Part shown: positions 6,234 to 27,993 of the stretch, piece by piece
Layout of the letters: every line of letters begins with the position of its first letter
Position numbering within the stretch: the first letter of the stretch is position 1
Source of the DNA: Streptacidiphilus pinicola
GTDB taxonomy: Bacteria; Actinomycetota; Actinomycetes; Streptomycetales; Streptomycetaceae
Direction: 5' to 3'
Assembly (NCBI RefSeq): GCF_003258295.1
Contig: NZ_QKYN01000127.1
Span: 1-64,000 of the forward strand
Length of the DNA stretch: 64,000 nucleotides
Made by a program: the position numbers and the translations under genes
Notes under the pieces: model-generated
Database searches by the model: none
Seen by the model: only the letters and a program-made list of their open reading frames with translations
Told to the model about the DNA's origin: nothing

Positions 6234-6810
6234 GCCGACTGCCCCGGCCGCGACCGGGGGCCGCAGCACGACCTCCGCGAAGATCGTGGTGGCGGGCGGC
6301 TTCGGCGTGGGCAAGACGACCCTCGTCGGCGCGGTCTCGGAGATCAACCCGCTGCGTACCGAGGCCGTGATGACCTCGGCCTCGGCCGGGATCGACGACC
6401 TCAGCCACGTCAGCGGCAAGACGACCACGACGGTCGCCATGGACTTCGGCCGCATCACCCTCGACGAGGACCTGATCCTCTACCTGTTCGGGACTCCGGG
6501 CCAGGACCGCTTCTGGTTCATGTGGGACGACCTGGTCCGCGGCGCGATCGGCGCCGTCGTGCTCGTGGACACCCGCCGCCTGGCGGACTGCTTCCCCGCG
6601 ATCGACTACTTCGAGAACAGCGGCCTGCCGTTCATCGTCGCGATCAACGCCTTCGACGGCAGCCAGACCCACACCCCGGACGAGGTCCGCGAGGCCCTCC
6701 AGCTGGGCCCGGACACCCCGATCATCACCACGGACGCCCGCCGCCGTGACAGCGCCAAGTCCGCGCTGATCACCCTGGTCGAGCACGCCCTGCTCGCCCG
6801 CCTGCGGTAA
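6214..6810 (+). CDS. cvnD: CvnD, small GTP-binding protein of second conservon
   Basis: 198-residue P-loop GTPase. GTG start at 6214 within the end of cvnC. It has GGFGVGKTT near residue 28 and the GTPGQDRFWFMWDDL block, both shared with the first conservon copy. It is the last gene of the operon and is followed after about 10 bases by a strong hairpin. In the characterised Streptomyces conservons this protein hydrolyses GTP and associates with the membrane complex; the effect on development or antibiotic production differs between conservons and cannot be predicted here. Confidence 0.94.
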   Translation: MDFASSRPTAPAATGGRSTTSAKIVVAGGFGVGKTTLVGAVSEINPLRTEAVMTSASAGIDDLSHVSGKTTTTVAMDFGRITLDEDLILYLFGTPGQDRFWFMWDDLVRGAIGAVVLVDTRRLADCFPAIDYFENSGLPFIVAINAFDGSQTHTPDEVREALQLGPDTPIITTDARRRDSAKSALITLVEHALLARLR

Positions 6811-6821
6811 GTCGCCGAACA

Positions 6822-6862
6822 GCCGAAAGGGGCGCGAGGAACCCTCCTCGCGCCCCTTCGGC
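6822..6862. terminator. Bidirectional terminator between cvnD and cimA
   Basis: Inverted repeat with arms at 6822-6840 and 6845-6862 (GCCGAAAGGGGCGCGAGGA against TCCTCGCGCCCCTTCGGC, one bulged base, loop of 4). It lies between the convergent ends of cvnD (6810) and cimA (6869) and can serve both strands. Confidence 0.85.
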
Positions 6863-6868
6863 GTTTCG

Positions 6869-8458
6869 TCAGGGATTCAGGCCGGCGCGCACGAGACCGA
6901 AGGTGTAGGCGTCGTCCAGGGCCTGCCAGGAGGCGCCGATGACGTTCTCGGCGACGCCGACCGTGGACCAGGTGGACTCGCCGTCGGTGGTCTCGATGAG
7001 GACGCGGGTCTTGGAGCCCGTGCCGTGCTGGCCCTCCAGGATGCGGACCTTGTAGTCCGTCAGTTCCAGCTTGGCCAGCTGCGGGTAGAAGCGGCCCACG
7101 GCGGCCCGCAGCGCGGCGTCCAGCGCGTCGACGGGACCGTTGCCCTCCCCCGTGGCGACGAGGCGCTCACCCTTGGCCCAGAGCTTCACCGTGGCCTCGT
7201 TGGCCGTCGAGCCGTCGGCCCGCTGCTCGGCGATCGCGCGCCAGGACTCGAGGGTGAAGAAGCGGTCCTGCGCGCCCTGCACCTCGGCGCGGAGCAGCAG
7301 TTCGAAGGAGGCGTCGGCGGCCTCGAAGGTGTAGCCGGCGAGCTCCTTCTCCTTGACCCGGTCGACCACGCGGCCCGCCAACTCACGGTCGGTGGACAGG
7401 TCGTAGCCGAGCTCCCGGCCCTTGAGCTCGACCGAGGCGCGGCCCGCCATGTCGGAGACGAGCATCCGCATGGTGTTGCCCACCAGGGCCGGATCGGTGT
7501 GCTGGTAGAGGTCGGGGTCGACCTTGATCGCCGAGGCGTGCAGGCCGGCCTTGTGGGCGAAGGCTGAGACGCCGACGTAGGGCTGGTGCGTGGAGGGGGT
7601 GAGGTTGACGACCTCGGAGATCGCGTGCGAGATCCGGGTCATCTCCGCCAGGCGGCCCTCCGGCAGCACACGCCGGTCGTGCTTCAGCTCCAGCGCGCCG
7701 ACGACCGGGAAGAGGTTGGCGTTGCCGACCCGCTCGCCGTAGCCGTTGGCGGTGCACTGCACGTGCGTCGCGCCCGCGTCCACCGCGGCGAGGGTGTTGG
7801 CGACGGCGCAGCCGGTGTCGTCCTGGGCGTGGATGCCCAGGCGCGCGCCGGTCTCGGCGAGGACGTCGGCGACGATCTCACGGACGCCGCCGGGCAGCAT
7901 GCCGCCGTTGGTGTCGCAGAGCACCACGACGTCGGCGCCGGCCTCGTGCGCGGCGCGGACGACGGAGAGGGCGTAGGTGCGGTTGGCCTTGTAGCCGTCG
8001 AAGAAGTGCTCGCAGTCGATGAACACCCGCTTCCCCTGGGCGCGCAGGTACGCGACGCTGTCGCGGACCATCGCGAGGTTCTCGTCCAGCGTGGTGCGCA
8101 GCGCCAGGTCCACGTGCCGGTCGTGGGACTTGGCGACCAGGGTGACCACCGGTGCGCCGGAGGCCACGAGCGCGCGCAGCTGGGCGTCGTCCTCCGCGGT
8201 GCCGCCGGCTCGCCGCGTCGCGCCGAAGGCGACCAGCTGGGCGTTCTCCAGCTTGAGTTCGGTCGCGGCCCGGGCGAAGAACTCGGTGTCCCGCGGGTTG
8301 GCGCCCGGCCAGCCGCCCTCGATGAAGCCCACGCCGAACTCGTCCAGGTAGCGGGCGATGGCGAGCTTGTCCGCGACGGTGAGGTTGATGCCCTCGCGCT
8401 GCGCGCCGTCGCGCAGCGTGGTGTCGAAGACGTGGAATTCGTCGGAGAGGGAACTCAT
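6869..8458 (-). CDS. cimA: Citramalate synthase (LeuA-like)
   Basis: 529-residue HMGL-like enzyme. It begins with the metal-binding block FDTTLRDGAQREGI, has SHDRH and HAQDDTG in the TIM barrel, and carries a C-terminal LeuA-type regulatory dimer domain (about residues 390-529). CimA condenses pyruvate with acetyl-CoA to (R)-citramalate, an alternative route to 2-ketobutyrate for isoleucine; the Streptomyces protein at this locus is annotated this way, though substrate choice is not provable from sequence. I use ATG 8458, preceded by AGGAG, rather than the longer open frame to 8533, which runs through the attenuator hairpin. Upstream lie a leader peptide and an attenuator. It neighbours ilvE and leuB. 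Confidence 0.9.
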   Translation of the reverse strand: MSSLSDEFHVFDTTLRDGAQREGINLTVADKLAIARYLDEFGVGFIEGGWPGANPRDTEFFARAATELKLENAQLVAFGATRRAGGTAEDDAQLRALVASGAPVVTLVAKSHDRHVDLALRTTLDENLAMVRDSVAYLRAQGKRVFIDCEHFFDGYKANRTYALSVVRAAHEAGADVVVLCDTNGGMLPGGVREIVADVLAETGARLGIHAQDDTGCAVANTLAAVDAGATHVQCTANGYGERVGNANLFPVVGALELKHDRRVLPEGRLAEMTRISHAISEVVNLTPSTHQPYVGVSAFAHKAGLHASAIKVDPDLYQHTDPALVGNTMRMLVSDMAGRASVELKGRELGYDLSTDRELAGRVVDRVKEKELAGYTFEAADASFELLLRAEVQGAQDRFFTLESWRAIAEQRADGSTANEATVKLWAKGERLVATGEGNGPVDALDAALRAAVGRFYPQLAKLELTDYKVRILEGQHGTGSKTRVLIETTDGESTWSTVGVAENVIGASWQALDDAYTFGLVRAGLNP

Positions 8459-8498
8459 GGCCGGGGATCTCCTGTCGGCGGGGGCTGCTCGTTGAACG

Positions 8499-8528
8499 AA
8501 AAAGACCCCTCGCGGGATGCGAGAGGTC
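8499..8528 (-). promoter_or_regulatory. Transcription attenuator of cimA
   Basis: On the minus strand the RNA forms a hairpin with arms GACCTCTCGC and GCGAGGGGTC (one mismatch, loop about 5) followed immediately by a run of five U. It sits between a leader ORF with Leu/Ile codons (8559-8603) and the cimA start at 8458, the layout of ribosome-mediated attenuation. The ilvB leader at 27818-27935 has the same design. Confidence 0.75.
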
Positions 8529-8558
8529 TGCACGCTGGCTGGTTCTGCTTCCGAGAAC

Positions 8559-8603
8559 TCAGGCCGGCGCGCTGCAGCTAATAATCAGTGCGAGCTTGGG
8601 CAC
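8559..8603 (-). CDS. Leader peptide of cimA attenuator (14 aa)
   Basis: A short ORF, GTG 8603 to TGA 8559, encodes MPKLALIISCSAPA. Leu, Leu, Ile, Ile fall in positions 4-8, matching the end products of the pathway (isoleucine and other branched-chain amino acids). About 30 bases after its stop the RNA forms a hairpin followed by U5. No clear Shine-Dalgarno sequence precedes the GTG, and CAGACT lies six bases upstream at a -10 position, so a leaderless transcript is possible. The call rests on position and codon content. Confidence 0.65.
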   Translation of the reverse strand: MPKLALIISCSAPA

Positions 8604-8634
8604 GTTCGCAGTCTGGCACACAATCCACAGGACG

Positions 8635-8667
8635 GGCCGCGCATCTTGGGATACGAGATACGCGGCC
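8635..8667 (-). terminator. Terminator of ilvE
   Basis: Arms at 8635-8647 and 8655-8667 pair over 12 positions with one G-U wobble when read as minus-strand RNA (on the plus strand the same pair is a C-A mismatch), so it works in the ilvE direction. It starts 20 bases after the ilvE stop codon. Confidence 0.65.
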
Positions 8668-8686
8668 GTCCTCGTAGTCGGCGGGG

Positions 8687-9784
8687 TCAGACGATCGGGT
8701 GCATCCAGCCGTGGGTGTCCTCGCGCCGACCGGTCTGCAGCGCCAGCAGGGTCTCGCGCAGCTTCATGGTGACCGGGCCGGGCTTGCCGTCGCCGACCTG
8801 CCAGTCGCCACGGGCGGACTTGACCGAGCCGACCGGGGTGATCACGGCGGCGGTGCCGCAGGCGAAGACCTCGGTGAGCGCGCCGGAGGCGTTGCCCTCG
8901 CGCCACTCGTCGGTGGAGATCTTCCGCTCCTCGGTGGCGTAGCCGAGGTCGCCGGCGATGGAGAGCAGCGAGTCGCGGGTGATGCCGGGCAGCAGCGAGC
9001 CGGACAGCTCGGGGGTGACGACCTTCGCGTTCTCGCCCTCGCCGAAGACGAAGTAGAGGTTCATGCCGCCCATCTCCTCGATCCAGCGGCGCTCCACGGC
9101 GTCCAGCCAGACCACCTGGTCGCAGCCCTGCTCGGCGGCCTGGGCCTGGGCGACCAGCGACGCGGCGTAGTTGCCGGCGCACTTGGCCGCGCCGGTCCCG
9201 CCGGGGGCGGCACGGACGTACTCCTCGGAGATCCACACCGAGACCGGCTTGACGCCGCCGGGGAAGTAGGCGCCGGCCGGGGAGGCGATCAGCATGAAGA
9301 GGTACTCGTTGGCCGGACGCACGCCCAGGCCCACCTCGGTGGCGAACATGAAGGGGCGCAGGTAGAGGCTGGCCTCCTCCTGGGTCGGCACCCACGCCTG
9401 GTCCTGGTTGACCAGGGCCTCGACGGCGCCGACGAACAGCTCCTCGGGCAGCTCCGGCATGGCCAGGCGCGCGGCGGAGGCCTGGAAGCGGCGGGCGTTG
9501 GCCTCGGGACGGAAGGTCTGGATCCGACCGTCGGCGGTGCGGTACGCCTTCAGGCCCTCGAAGATCGACTGACCGTAGTGGATGGTCATGTTGGCGGGGT
9601 CGATCTCCAGCGGGCCGTAGGGCACCAGCTGCGCGTCGTGCCAGCCCCGGCCCTCGGTCCAGCGGATGGTCACCATGTTGTCGGTGAAGAAGCGACCGAA
9701 GCCGGGAGAGGCCAGGCGGGCCTCCCGCTCGACGGCGGGAAGCGGGTGAGCCGAGGGCTTGAGCTCGATAGAGAGGGAGGTCAT
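8687..9784 (-). CDS. ilvE: Branched-chain amino acid aminotransferase
   Basis: 365-residue fold-type IV PLP enzyme that interconverts Leu, Ile and Val with their 2-keto acids. The PLP lysine is in [15 protein letters not shown]. The core block [13 protein letters not shown] and the C-terminal [15 protein letters not shown] are typical of class I/II bacterial IlvE. ATG 9784 with GAAGGA upstream is the start; the open frame runs further, to 9904, without family similarity. It lies between leuB (upstream, own terminator) and cimA (downstream, own leader), so the three BCAA genes are probably separate transcription units. Confidence 0.96.
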
Positions 9785-9910
9785 CGACGTTTGTCCTTCA
9801 CCGTGTCGTCTGGTCGGGGTGCTCGGCGGGGGCGAGTCCCCACGGTCGATAGTCGCACCGATCGGGTTGCGAGCGACAGCCAGGTGGTGTGGTGAGGAGC
9901 GCAAACGCGC

Positions 9911-9938
9911 AGCACCGGGCCGTCGCCGGCCCGGTGCT
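9911..9938 (-). terminator. Terminator of leuB
   Basis: Perfect 11-base inverted repeat, AGCACCGGGCC with GGCCCGGTGCT, loop of 6, beginning 28 bases downstream of the leuB stop. It has no U tract, as is common in high-GC actinomycetes. Confidence 0.75.
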
Positions 9939-9965
9939 GTGGTTGAGGCAGAGGGAGCCGGCGGG

Positions 9966-11012
9966 TCAGCCGGCTACTCGGGCGGCGAGCGCGTCGCCGA
10001 TCTCCGAGGTGCTGCGCGGCGCCGCGAGGGCGGCGCGCTCGGCCAGGTCGGCGGCGACGGCCACCTCGATCTTCGCGGCCTCCGCGGCGTAGCCGAGGTG
10101 GCCCAGCAGCATGGCGACCGACAGGATCGTGGCCGTCGGGTCGGCCTTGCCCTGGCCGGCGATGTCCGGGGCGGAGCCGTGGACCGGCTCGAACATGGAC
10201 GGGAAGGCGCCGGAGGGGTTGATGTTGCCCGAGGCGGCCAGGCCGATGCCGCCGGTGACGGCCGCGGCGAGGTCGGTCAGGATGTCGCCGAAGAGGTTGT
10301 CGGTGACGATCACGTCGAAGCGCTCGGGCTGGGTGACGAAGAAGATCGTCGCCGCGTCGACGTGCAGGTAGTCGGTGGCGACCTCGGGGTACTCGGCGGC
10401 GACCGCGTCGAAGATCCGCTTCCACAGGTGACCGGCGTGGACCAGCACGTTGTTCTTGTGGACCAGCGTCAGCTTCTTGCGCGGGCGCGCCTGCGCGCGG
10501 GCGAAGGCGTCGCGGACGACGCGCTCGATGCCGAACGCCGTGTTGAGGCTGACCTCGGTGGCGATCTCCTGGTCGGTGCCGGTGCGCAGCGAGCCGCCGT
10601 TGCCGACGTAGGGGCCCTCGGTGCCCTCGCGGACCACGACGAAGTCGATGTCCGGGTTCCCCGCCAGCGGGGAGGCGACGCCGGGGAAGAGCTTGCCCGG
10701 GCGCAGGTTCACGTGGTGGTCGAAGGCGAAGCGCAGCTTCAGCAGCAGCCCGCGCTCCAGCACCCCGGAGGGAACGGACGGGTCGCCGATGGCACCCAGC
10801 AGGATCGCGTCGGCGCCCTTGAGCTCCTCCAGCACGCTGTCCGGCAGGGTCTCGCCGGTCGCGTGGTAGCGGCGCGCACCGAGGTCGTACTCGGCGGTCT
10901 CCACCTTCACGTCGGCGGGGAGGGCCGAGGTAAGGACCTTCAGCCCTTCGGCCACGACCTCCTGGCCGATACCGTCACCAGGGATCACTGCGAGGCGGAG
11001 AGTGCGAGACAT
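9966..11012 (-). CDS. leuB: 3-isopropylmalate dehydrogenase
   Basis: 348-residue NAD-dependent decarboxylating dehydrogenase of leucine synthesis, converting 3-isopropylmalate to 2-oxoisocaproate. It opens with [15 protein letters not shown]; substrate arginines lie in [38 protein letters not shown] and [20 protein letters not shown] are the metal and NAD regions. ATG 11012 gives the usual short N-terminus MSRTLRLAV; an in-frame ATG at 11024 and an open frame to 11039 also exist. It is the first gene of the minus-strand BCAA group, transcribed divergently from the PIG-L gene. Confidence 0.96.
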
Positions 11013-11245
11013 GTCGTCGACCATACTCCGCGCGTCCATCAGCTGACATCGACTGTCCGCGATACGGACCGCGCGGAGGCACGGAACCAGAACGTGTTCC
11101 TGGGCGTCCTTCCGGTGAACACCGCGTAAGGGGCGAAGAAACCTGCTCTTACCGCATGCTCTTGCACGTCTGGTCTATCGTGCAGCGGCAACCTTTAGGC
11201 AAGACGAGCGACACCCAAGCCGGAGTTGGTAGGGCTCCCCCCGCG

Positions 11246-27893: not shown

Positions 27894-27935
27894 TCAGCCG
27901 ACGCGCCCGCCAAGTACGAGAATTCGGGTGCGCAT
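27894..27935 (-). CDS. ilvB leader peptide (13 aa)
   Basis: ATG 27935 to TGA 27894 encodes MRTRILVLGGRVG, with the run Ile-Leu-Val-Leu at residues 5-8. This matches the known actinobacterial ilvB leader pattern. It is followed by pausing and terminator hairpins. A promoter-like TTGACA with 18-base spacing ends so that transcription would start at the A of this ATG, making the peptide leaderless. Confidence 0.9.
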   Translation of the reverse strand: MRTRILVLGGRVG

Positions 27936-27972: not shown

Positions 27973-27993
27973 GCTCACTCGTTTCGTGTCTCA

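Follow-up and report, generated by a model that had tools for sequence, protein, structure and literature searches.

The citramalate synthase gene (cimA) of Streptacidiphilus pinicola is probably controlled by a ribosome-mediated transcription attenuator that senses isoleucine, in which termination would be countered by a conserved helix (helix A) abutting the terminator. CimA opens the threonine-independent route to isoleucine, and its leader would be an isoleucine-specific sensor. Comparison of related leaders demonstrates, at the level of sequence, a conserved short open reading frame (ORF), its isoleucine codons, helix A, the terminator, the abutment of the two hairpins, and codons matched to the downstream gene; comparative support for isoleucine-specific, ribosome-mediated transcription attenuation is accordingly strong. 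Translation of the leader, a leaderless start, the direction of regulation, and antagonism of termination by the abutting helix A are what we infer from these features. The original prediction had proposed attenuation of cimA by branched-chain amino acids. The attenuator is well supported by comparison, while the sensed amino acid narrows to isoleucine specifically.

The window analyzed here is the whole 64,000-nucleotide stretch of contig NZ_QKYN01000127.1 (positions 1 to 64,000, forward strand). Running from ilvE to cimA on the minus strand, it encodes a -10-like element, a leader ORF, a terminator hairpin, an AGGAG, and cimA. The extended -10-like element (TGTGC-CAGACT, 8610..8620) lies 6 nt 5' of the leader GTG start (8603-8601), and the 14-codon ORF (MPKLALIISCSAPA; 8559..8603) ends in a TGA stop. 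Codons 7 and 8, the putative sensing codons ATT-ATT (Ile7-Ile8, 8580..8585), fall in conserved columns. The last codons of the ORF contain the 5' strand of helix A (8563..8572), whose 3' strand (8530..8539) lies flush against the terminator stem; both strands come from RNAalifold without imposed structure and from covariation, the 3' strand also from individual folds. The intrinsic terminator (8499..8529) consists of an 11-bp stem with a 5-nt loop (8529-8503) followed by a TTTT U-tract (8502-8499), as identified by folding, a terminator scan, and covarying pairs. Downstream lie the AGGAG (8469..8473), a Shine-Dalgarno-like site, and cimA itself (6869..8458, ATG at 8458), which encodes a 529-residue citramalate synthase scoring 630.4 bits against TIGR00977 (cut-off 450). 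Among named sequences, this CimA is best matched by that of S. neutrinimicus, at 97%. The predicted succession of a 14-codon ORF, a terminator hairpin, and cimA is therefore present on the minus strand, with a GTG start and with the gene correctly named; helix A (8572-8563 with 8539-8530) was absent from that prediction. A cimA start at GTG 8533, which would place the terminator inside the gene, was rejected because close relatives differ by one base in the hairpin loop, which breaks the frame.

The leader RNA has a folding energy of -68.2 kcal/mol, lower than all 200 of 200 dinucleotide shuffles (z -3.6). A simple scan of positions 6700-11200 found four terminator-like sites, two of which are the cimA-leader hairpin, with 1.3 expected. 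A strict scan of both window strands (perfect stem of at least 7 pairs, loop of 3-8 nt, TTTT), which misses the longer-looped ilvB terminator, returned the cimA-leader terminator, with the ORF in front of it, as its sole site.

An intergenic-region DNA search of 41 genomes (S. pinicola and 40 relatives) returned loci from S. pinicola and 29 relatives; in each of these 31 loci, the window being counted twice, tblastn placed cimA beside the match. A -10-like element, an isoleucine-containing ORF, and a terminator were parsed in 27 of the 30 distinct loci. These 27 loci, selected by a filter that demanded an isoleucine residue and a loose -10 pattern, were aligned with MAFFT (alignment A1) and used to build a covariance model, R1. 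The window duplicate, L001, was left out of the counts, and L010, L012, and L017 failed the A1 filter; L010 and L017 do carry an isoleucine leader, and in L012 an insertion bounded by long terminal inverted repeats (TAGTGCTGCGTCAACCGAGGTTCGCC...) separates the terminator from cimA.

Conservation of the ORF and hairpin among relatives, the check proposed with the original prediction, was found throughout the family and order and in part of the class. In overlapping samples, R1 matches 199 of 200 family genomes (22 of the 200 had supplied model rows), 146 of 147 order genomes, 132 of 246 class genomes, and 28 of 396 phylum genomes, many of these last matches being weak; the sole family genome lacking a match is 71% complete. 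Since 22 of the 132 matched class genomes belong to the same family, 110 of 224 outside the family carry a match. TIGR00977 found cimA in 188 of the 246 class genomes. There are 124 class R1 matches outside the family, 84 of them in genomes whose cimA was among the matches listed, and 74 of these 84 lie 22-222 nt (median 58.5) upstream of cimA on its strand. Counting against the proposal, 55 of the 129 cimA genes outside the family among the matches listed have no adjoining R1 match; at those 55 genes the leader is absent or diverged. For the 42 class loci retrieved as cimA leaders, tblastn located the gene 6-213 nt downstream in every case, with 65-81% identity over the matched N-terminal part. 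The window and 35 of these 42 loci form a second, 36-row MAFFT alignment (A3), made, like A1, without reference to structure.

The TG of the -10-like element (T3 and G4) is invariant in 27/27 A1 rows and 36/36 A3 rows. Positions A7 and T11 are conserved in at least 90% of A3; in A1 both belong to the row-selection filter, so that their conservation there is preselected. The placement of this element 6 nt before the GTG suggests that the leader transcript may be leaderless, and the S. lividans leaders ilvL and leuL2 are leaderless by transcription start site data in the available text of PMC8079986. A consensus scan of positions 6700-11200 found no sigma-70 consensus promoter, which we count against the attenuator.

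The codon content of the ORF points to isoleucine. With the start codon chosen blind to content, an ORF is present in 68 of 69 cimA rows (27 family-order and 42 class), the exception being L159, which has no ATG or GTG ORF. Isoleucine occurs in 67 of the 68 parsed ORFs, as against 3/68 and 7/68 in the other two frames, and Ile-Ile occurs in 61/68 and in neither of the other frames. The lone ORF without isoleucine, in L005, is an out-of-frame ATG ORF; the GTG ORF of L005 contains isoleucine. Isoleucine was preselected in the 27 A1 rows, which counts against these figures, and not in the 42 class rows. Two or more leucines occur in only 19 of 67 cimA leader ORFs. Judged from these alignments, the conserved codons are those of isoleucine, with leucine absent or variable in many leaders. 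The Leu/Leu/Ile/Ile signature originally proposed thus survives in its isoleucine half and fails in its leucine half.

The choice among synonymous codons is also uneven. In the 74 leaders parsed from named genomes, 125 of the 142 isoleucine codons are ATT; the family-plus-class leaders give 98 of 143, and the coding sequences of the window 10 of 529. Among the named loci, 74 of 80 passed a filter favouring isoleucine peptides; the other six show the leader when the bases are read. The sensing codons of cimA, ilvB, and leuS leaders include the A/T-ending synonyms ATT, GTA, and CTT. GTA and CTT are rare codons, and A/T-ending sensing codons are perhaps tuned for slow decoding.

R1 matches that lie away from cimA, or in genomes without a listed cimA, precede leuS, ilvB, leuA, ilvA-like, and small ACT-like genes. 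The window itself holds one such match, the ilvB leader ORF MRTRILVLGGRVG (27894..27935, minus strand), which has the architecture of the cimA leader and is of a kind already published; it differs by one residue from the S. lividans ilvL peptide MRTRILVLGKRVG (PMC8079986). Other ilvB leaders resemble MRTRILVLGGRVG, leuS leaders read MRTARLLLSRPR and similar, and leuA leaders read MTNLLLT and MKHLLLIESARH. Among the downstream genes tested, leuS was confirmed in 4/4 loci, leuA in 2/2, and the large subunit of acetolactate synthase in 2/2, all above family cut-offs; four more products are thiamine-pyrophosphate enzymes, and the two ilvA-like proteins score below the cut-offs of the threonine ammonia-lyase models they match. 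Leu-Leu occurs in 5/5 leuS and 2/2 leuA leaders, isoleucine in 10/10 ACT-like and 2/2 ilvA-like leaders, and valine in 7/7 and isoleucine in 5/7 ilvB leaders, in per-gene codon counts (and geometry) for which the start codon was picked by Ile/Leu/Val content, a blind recount having been made for the cimA rows. On one shared layout, then, the putative sensed codon follows the downstream gene. This swap of codon with gene on a single chassis is our strongest argument that codon identity matters.

Two of these groups deserve separate description. At L092-L099 (second R1 matches), L109, and L119, an isoleucine leader stands in front of a stand-alone gene whose product has about 87-114 residues. 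The products show weak similarity to the ACT domain found in the small subunit of acetolactate synthase (best of three tested, E 2e-4, all below curated cut-offs), and such an ACT-like product is a possible unrecognised regulatory subunit of branched-chain amino acid synthesis. At L110 and L111, the isoleucine-containing leaders MQLHLMAIT and MQRHLMAITWARD precede threonine ammonia-lyase-like genes (below cut-off), and the cimA listed for each of these genomes has no adjoining R1 match. Isoleucine control may sit there on the other isoleucine entry enzyme.

RNAalifold, given no structure, finds two helices only in the 27 leaders of A1, helix A and the terminator, and the same two alone in the 36 leaders of A3. 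In A1, 6 of the 10 helix A pairs show changes on both sides, and one helix A position is unpaired in 23 of 27 rows. The terminator pairs covary in the class-wide rows of A3. None of 500 shuffles matches the whole-structure paired percentage, the both-side changes, or the covariation score of A1, and the same holds for A3; the number of further pair types is not unusual, being equalled by 210/500 shuffles (A1) and 151/500 (A3).

The geometry of these elements is tightly constrained. Of 94 minimum-energy folds, 82 were usable, the 12 others being dropped mostly because the tract after the stem pairs elsewhere; helix A and the terminator are separated by 0 nt in 68 of the 82, by 1 nt in 10, and by 2-3 nt in 4. 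The last isoleucine codon lies 3-9 nt from helix A in 65 of 66 measured isoleucine-type leaders, the remaining parse giving -13. The stop codon ends within 2 nt of where helix A begins (-2 to +2) in 27 of the 66 and 13-21 nt past its first base in the other 39. Because of this spacing, a ribosome at the stop codon would cover the 5' strand of helix A and one halted on isoleucine would leave most of it free. Minimal leaders comprise an ORF, a hairpin of 22-25 nt, and the terminator, and nothing more.

Ribosome occupancy was then modelled as a mask in partition functions for three states in 27 rows. The predicted probability of helix A is 0.77-1.00 in free RNA, 0.38-0.70 with the ribosome on the last isoleucine codon, and 0.0 with the ribosome at the stop. 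For the terminator, 23 of 27 rows give at least 0.95 irrespective of ribosome state, the exceptions being L019, L020, L026, and L030. The terminator 5' arm of L019 lacks three bases (ACC), and its predicted terminator probability is 0.33-0.69. In these predictions, helix A alone responds to where the ribosome sits.

These features suggest a route by which isoleucine supply could set cimA transcription. Transcription would begin at the GTG or beside it, with the short ORF translated as RNA polymerase advances. With ample Ile-tRNA, the ribosome would reach the stop and cover the 5' strand of helix A, the terminator would act alone, and transcription would end before cimA. With scarce Ile-tRNA, the ribosome would halt on ATT-ATT and helix A would form right beside the base of the terminator stem; termination would then become inefficient and cimA would be made. 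A duplex flush with the stem foot would hinder closing of the terminator's last pairs at RNA polymerase. For regulation to make sense at a biosynthetic gene, helix A would have to weaken termination; it counts against the proposal that this antagonism has no thermodynamic explanation, since the terminator dominates in the fold whatever the ribosome state in those 23 rows. As no antiterminator overlapping the terminator was found, the cimA leader offers a clean test case of whether a helix set against a terminator can switch it off.

The most serious competitor is a classical trp-type attenuator, in which a true antiterminator sharing terminator bases is transient, pseudoknotted, or helped by NusA or NusG, and is missed by equilibrium folding. 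Mutually exclusive terminators and antiterminators have been proposed for Corynebacterium ilvB-II and M. tuberculosis ilvB1 in the available text of PMC10272879 and PMC13236596, and an antiterminator is described for Streptomyces leuS in that of PMC1262725. In addition, the 5' arm of the terminator hardly varies in A1, which could signal a second pairing partner. Neither RNAalifold (A1 and A3) nor the partition functions (27 rows) found an antiterminator overlapping the terminator, a result that is not proof of its absence; instead, the alignments yield helix A and the terminator alone, and the terminator dominates in all modelled ribosome states in 23/27 rows. Room is also scarce. Of 57 flush cimA leaders, 36 have a complete helix A hairpin of at most 37 nt and 35 have a helix A loop of 3-6 nt, which leaves little space for pairing between loop and terminator. 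A Corynebacterium-style antiterminator, with the helix A loop paired to the terminator's right arm, was rejected, many members having no room for it. On balance we regard a trp-type switch as unlikely, though a genuine contender, and prefer the abutting-helix attenuator.

The remaining explanations dispense with codon-specific stalling. A riboswitch, T-box, or protein-binding leader that needs no translation of the ORF would accommodate a terminator sequence strongly conserved across the order, as well as the codon changes without effect in S. coelicolor ilvB reported in the available text of PMC1262725. Against it, no Rfam family matches the window at its gathering score, the two Rfam matches that 8400-8760 yields with E no greater than 5 fall far under their cut-offs, minimal members leave little room for a binding pocket, and the codons track the downstream gene; we consider such a leader improbable. 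Still less credible is ribosome arrest by the nascent leader peptide in place of Ile-tRNA shortage: the RRAGPQ end recurs in many Streptomyces leaders, but its codons overlap helix A, and the peptide after the isoleucines is often missing or unrelated outside the family (MSFWMIII, VHRTAIIIN). That the hairpin is a plain transcription terminator of ilvE and the ORF incidental is equally implausible and largely refuted. Of 110 cimA loci examined, 54, the window among them, have ilvE upstream and on the same strand, but the other 56 show no ilvE in the fetched flank (2 kb or less), and across the class the element adjoins cimA. A plain terminator would also have no use for conserved in-frame isoleucine codons, a -10-like element, or codons matched to the gene downstream.

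We tentatively raise the possibility, which we rate as no better than a minority prospect, of a class of minimal actinomycete attenuators with a leaderless micro-ORF, a hairpin, and a terminator placed end to end. Translation would gate the hairpin, and the hairpin would suppress termination by abutting the terminator foot while sharing no bases with it; the sensed codon would be swapped for each gene, among cimA, ilvB, leuS, leuA, ilvA-like, and stand-alone ACT-like genes.

Other features occur upstream of these leaders. A GAGAC-type motif (TGAGAC and near variants) precedes cimA, ACT-like, and ilvB leaders (18/27 and 18/68) at a fixed distance upstream of the -10-like element, in most cases 32-33 or 44 nt. 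It is present at 27993 (minus strand) in the window, upstream of many A1 cimA leaders, and at L093, L095-L099, L103, L106, L115, and L117. The TGAGAC hexamer by itself occurs 13 times in the window, and the point of interest is the fixed spacing. The motif is unlike the published NdgR motif; NdgR control of cimA was considered and set aside, as neither SCO5529 nor TGAGAC is among the NdgR targets and motif listed in the available text of PMC4340878. An inverted repeat without a U-tract (GGCCGCGTATCTCGTATCCCAAGATGCGCGGCC, about 8667-8635) lies upstream of the leader in the window, and similar repeats occur in L003-L008, which lack the TGAGAC motif there.

Among the matches listed in the open-access literature, no published leader or RNA control of cimA was found. 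Seliverstov et al. (2005) describe ilvB, leuS, leuA, trp, and cys leaders and ileS T-boxes, and none for cimA in the available text (PMC1262725); Table 4 for S. lividans TK24 holds eight leaders, none for cimA (available text of PMC8079986), and the available text of PMC11109978 and PMC8269248 does not name the gene; the latter reports S. clavuligerus term-seq data with a count of 150 premature transcription units. With the ilvB and leuS leaders already published, cimA is a new case of actinomycete branched-chain amino acid attenuation. It resembles the Streptomyces ilvB leader (ilvL) in its leaderless short ORF with branched-chain codons and in an ORF end that pairs beside an intrinsic terminator, and R1 matches the ilvB leader here; ilvB control involves Ile, Leu, and Val codons, whereas the cimA leader conserves isoleucine only. 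The Streptomyces leuS leader (leuL2) shares the architecture and is also matched by R1, but carries Leu codons before a tRNA synthetase gene and was published as a classical attenuator with an antiterminator (available text of PMC1262725).

Codon changes made in related leaders give a mixed picture. Substitutions in the S. coelicolor ilvB leader were without effect (Craster et al., 1999, as reported in the available text of PMC1262725), which counts against the cimA attenuator because the window ilvB leader shares its architecture. Leaders of the cimA type may also bear on the puzzle that these changes did not act as trp-type attenuation predicts. The Corynebacterium ilvB-II uORF motif and the M. 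tuberculosis ilvB1 leader likewise combine a uORF with branched-chain codons and a terminator stem, with expression rising at low branched-chain amino acids (PMC10272879 and PMC13236596, available text). Corynebacterium ilvB-II is expressed strongly in minimal medium and weakly in rich medium, and its regulation withstood a single Val-to-Glu change, a point against codon sensing (available text of PMC10272879); the M. tuberculosis ilvB1 leader lost induction when its LVVI was replaced by AAAA, a point in its favour (available text of PMC13236596). Both precede a gene other than cimA, and the antiterminator proposed for them shares terminator bases, a pairing of which none was found in the cimA leaders.

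In trp-type attenuators of E. coli, codon-specific ribosome stalling decides termination through a mutually exclusive antiterminator. In the cimA leader, by contrast, the helix that would be gated by the ribosome and the terminator share no bases, and the proposed mechanism, unlike trp-type attenuation, predicts readthrough if the leader is untranslated, which counts against it. Through its abutting helix, the cimA leader may nonetheless be a variant that works otherwise than the textbook attenuator.
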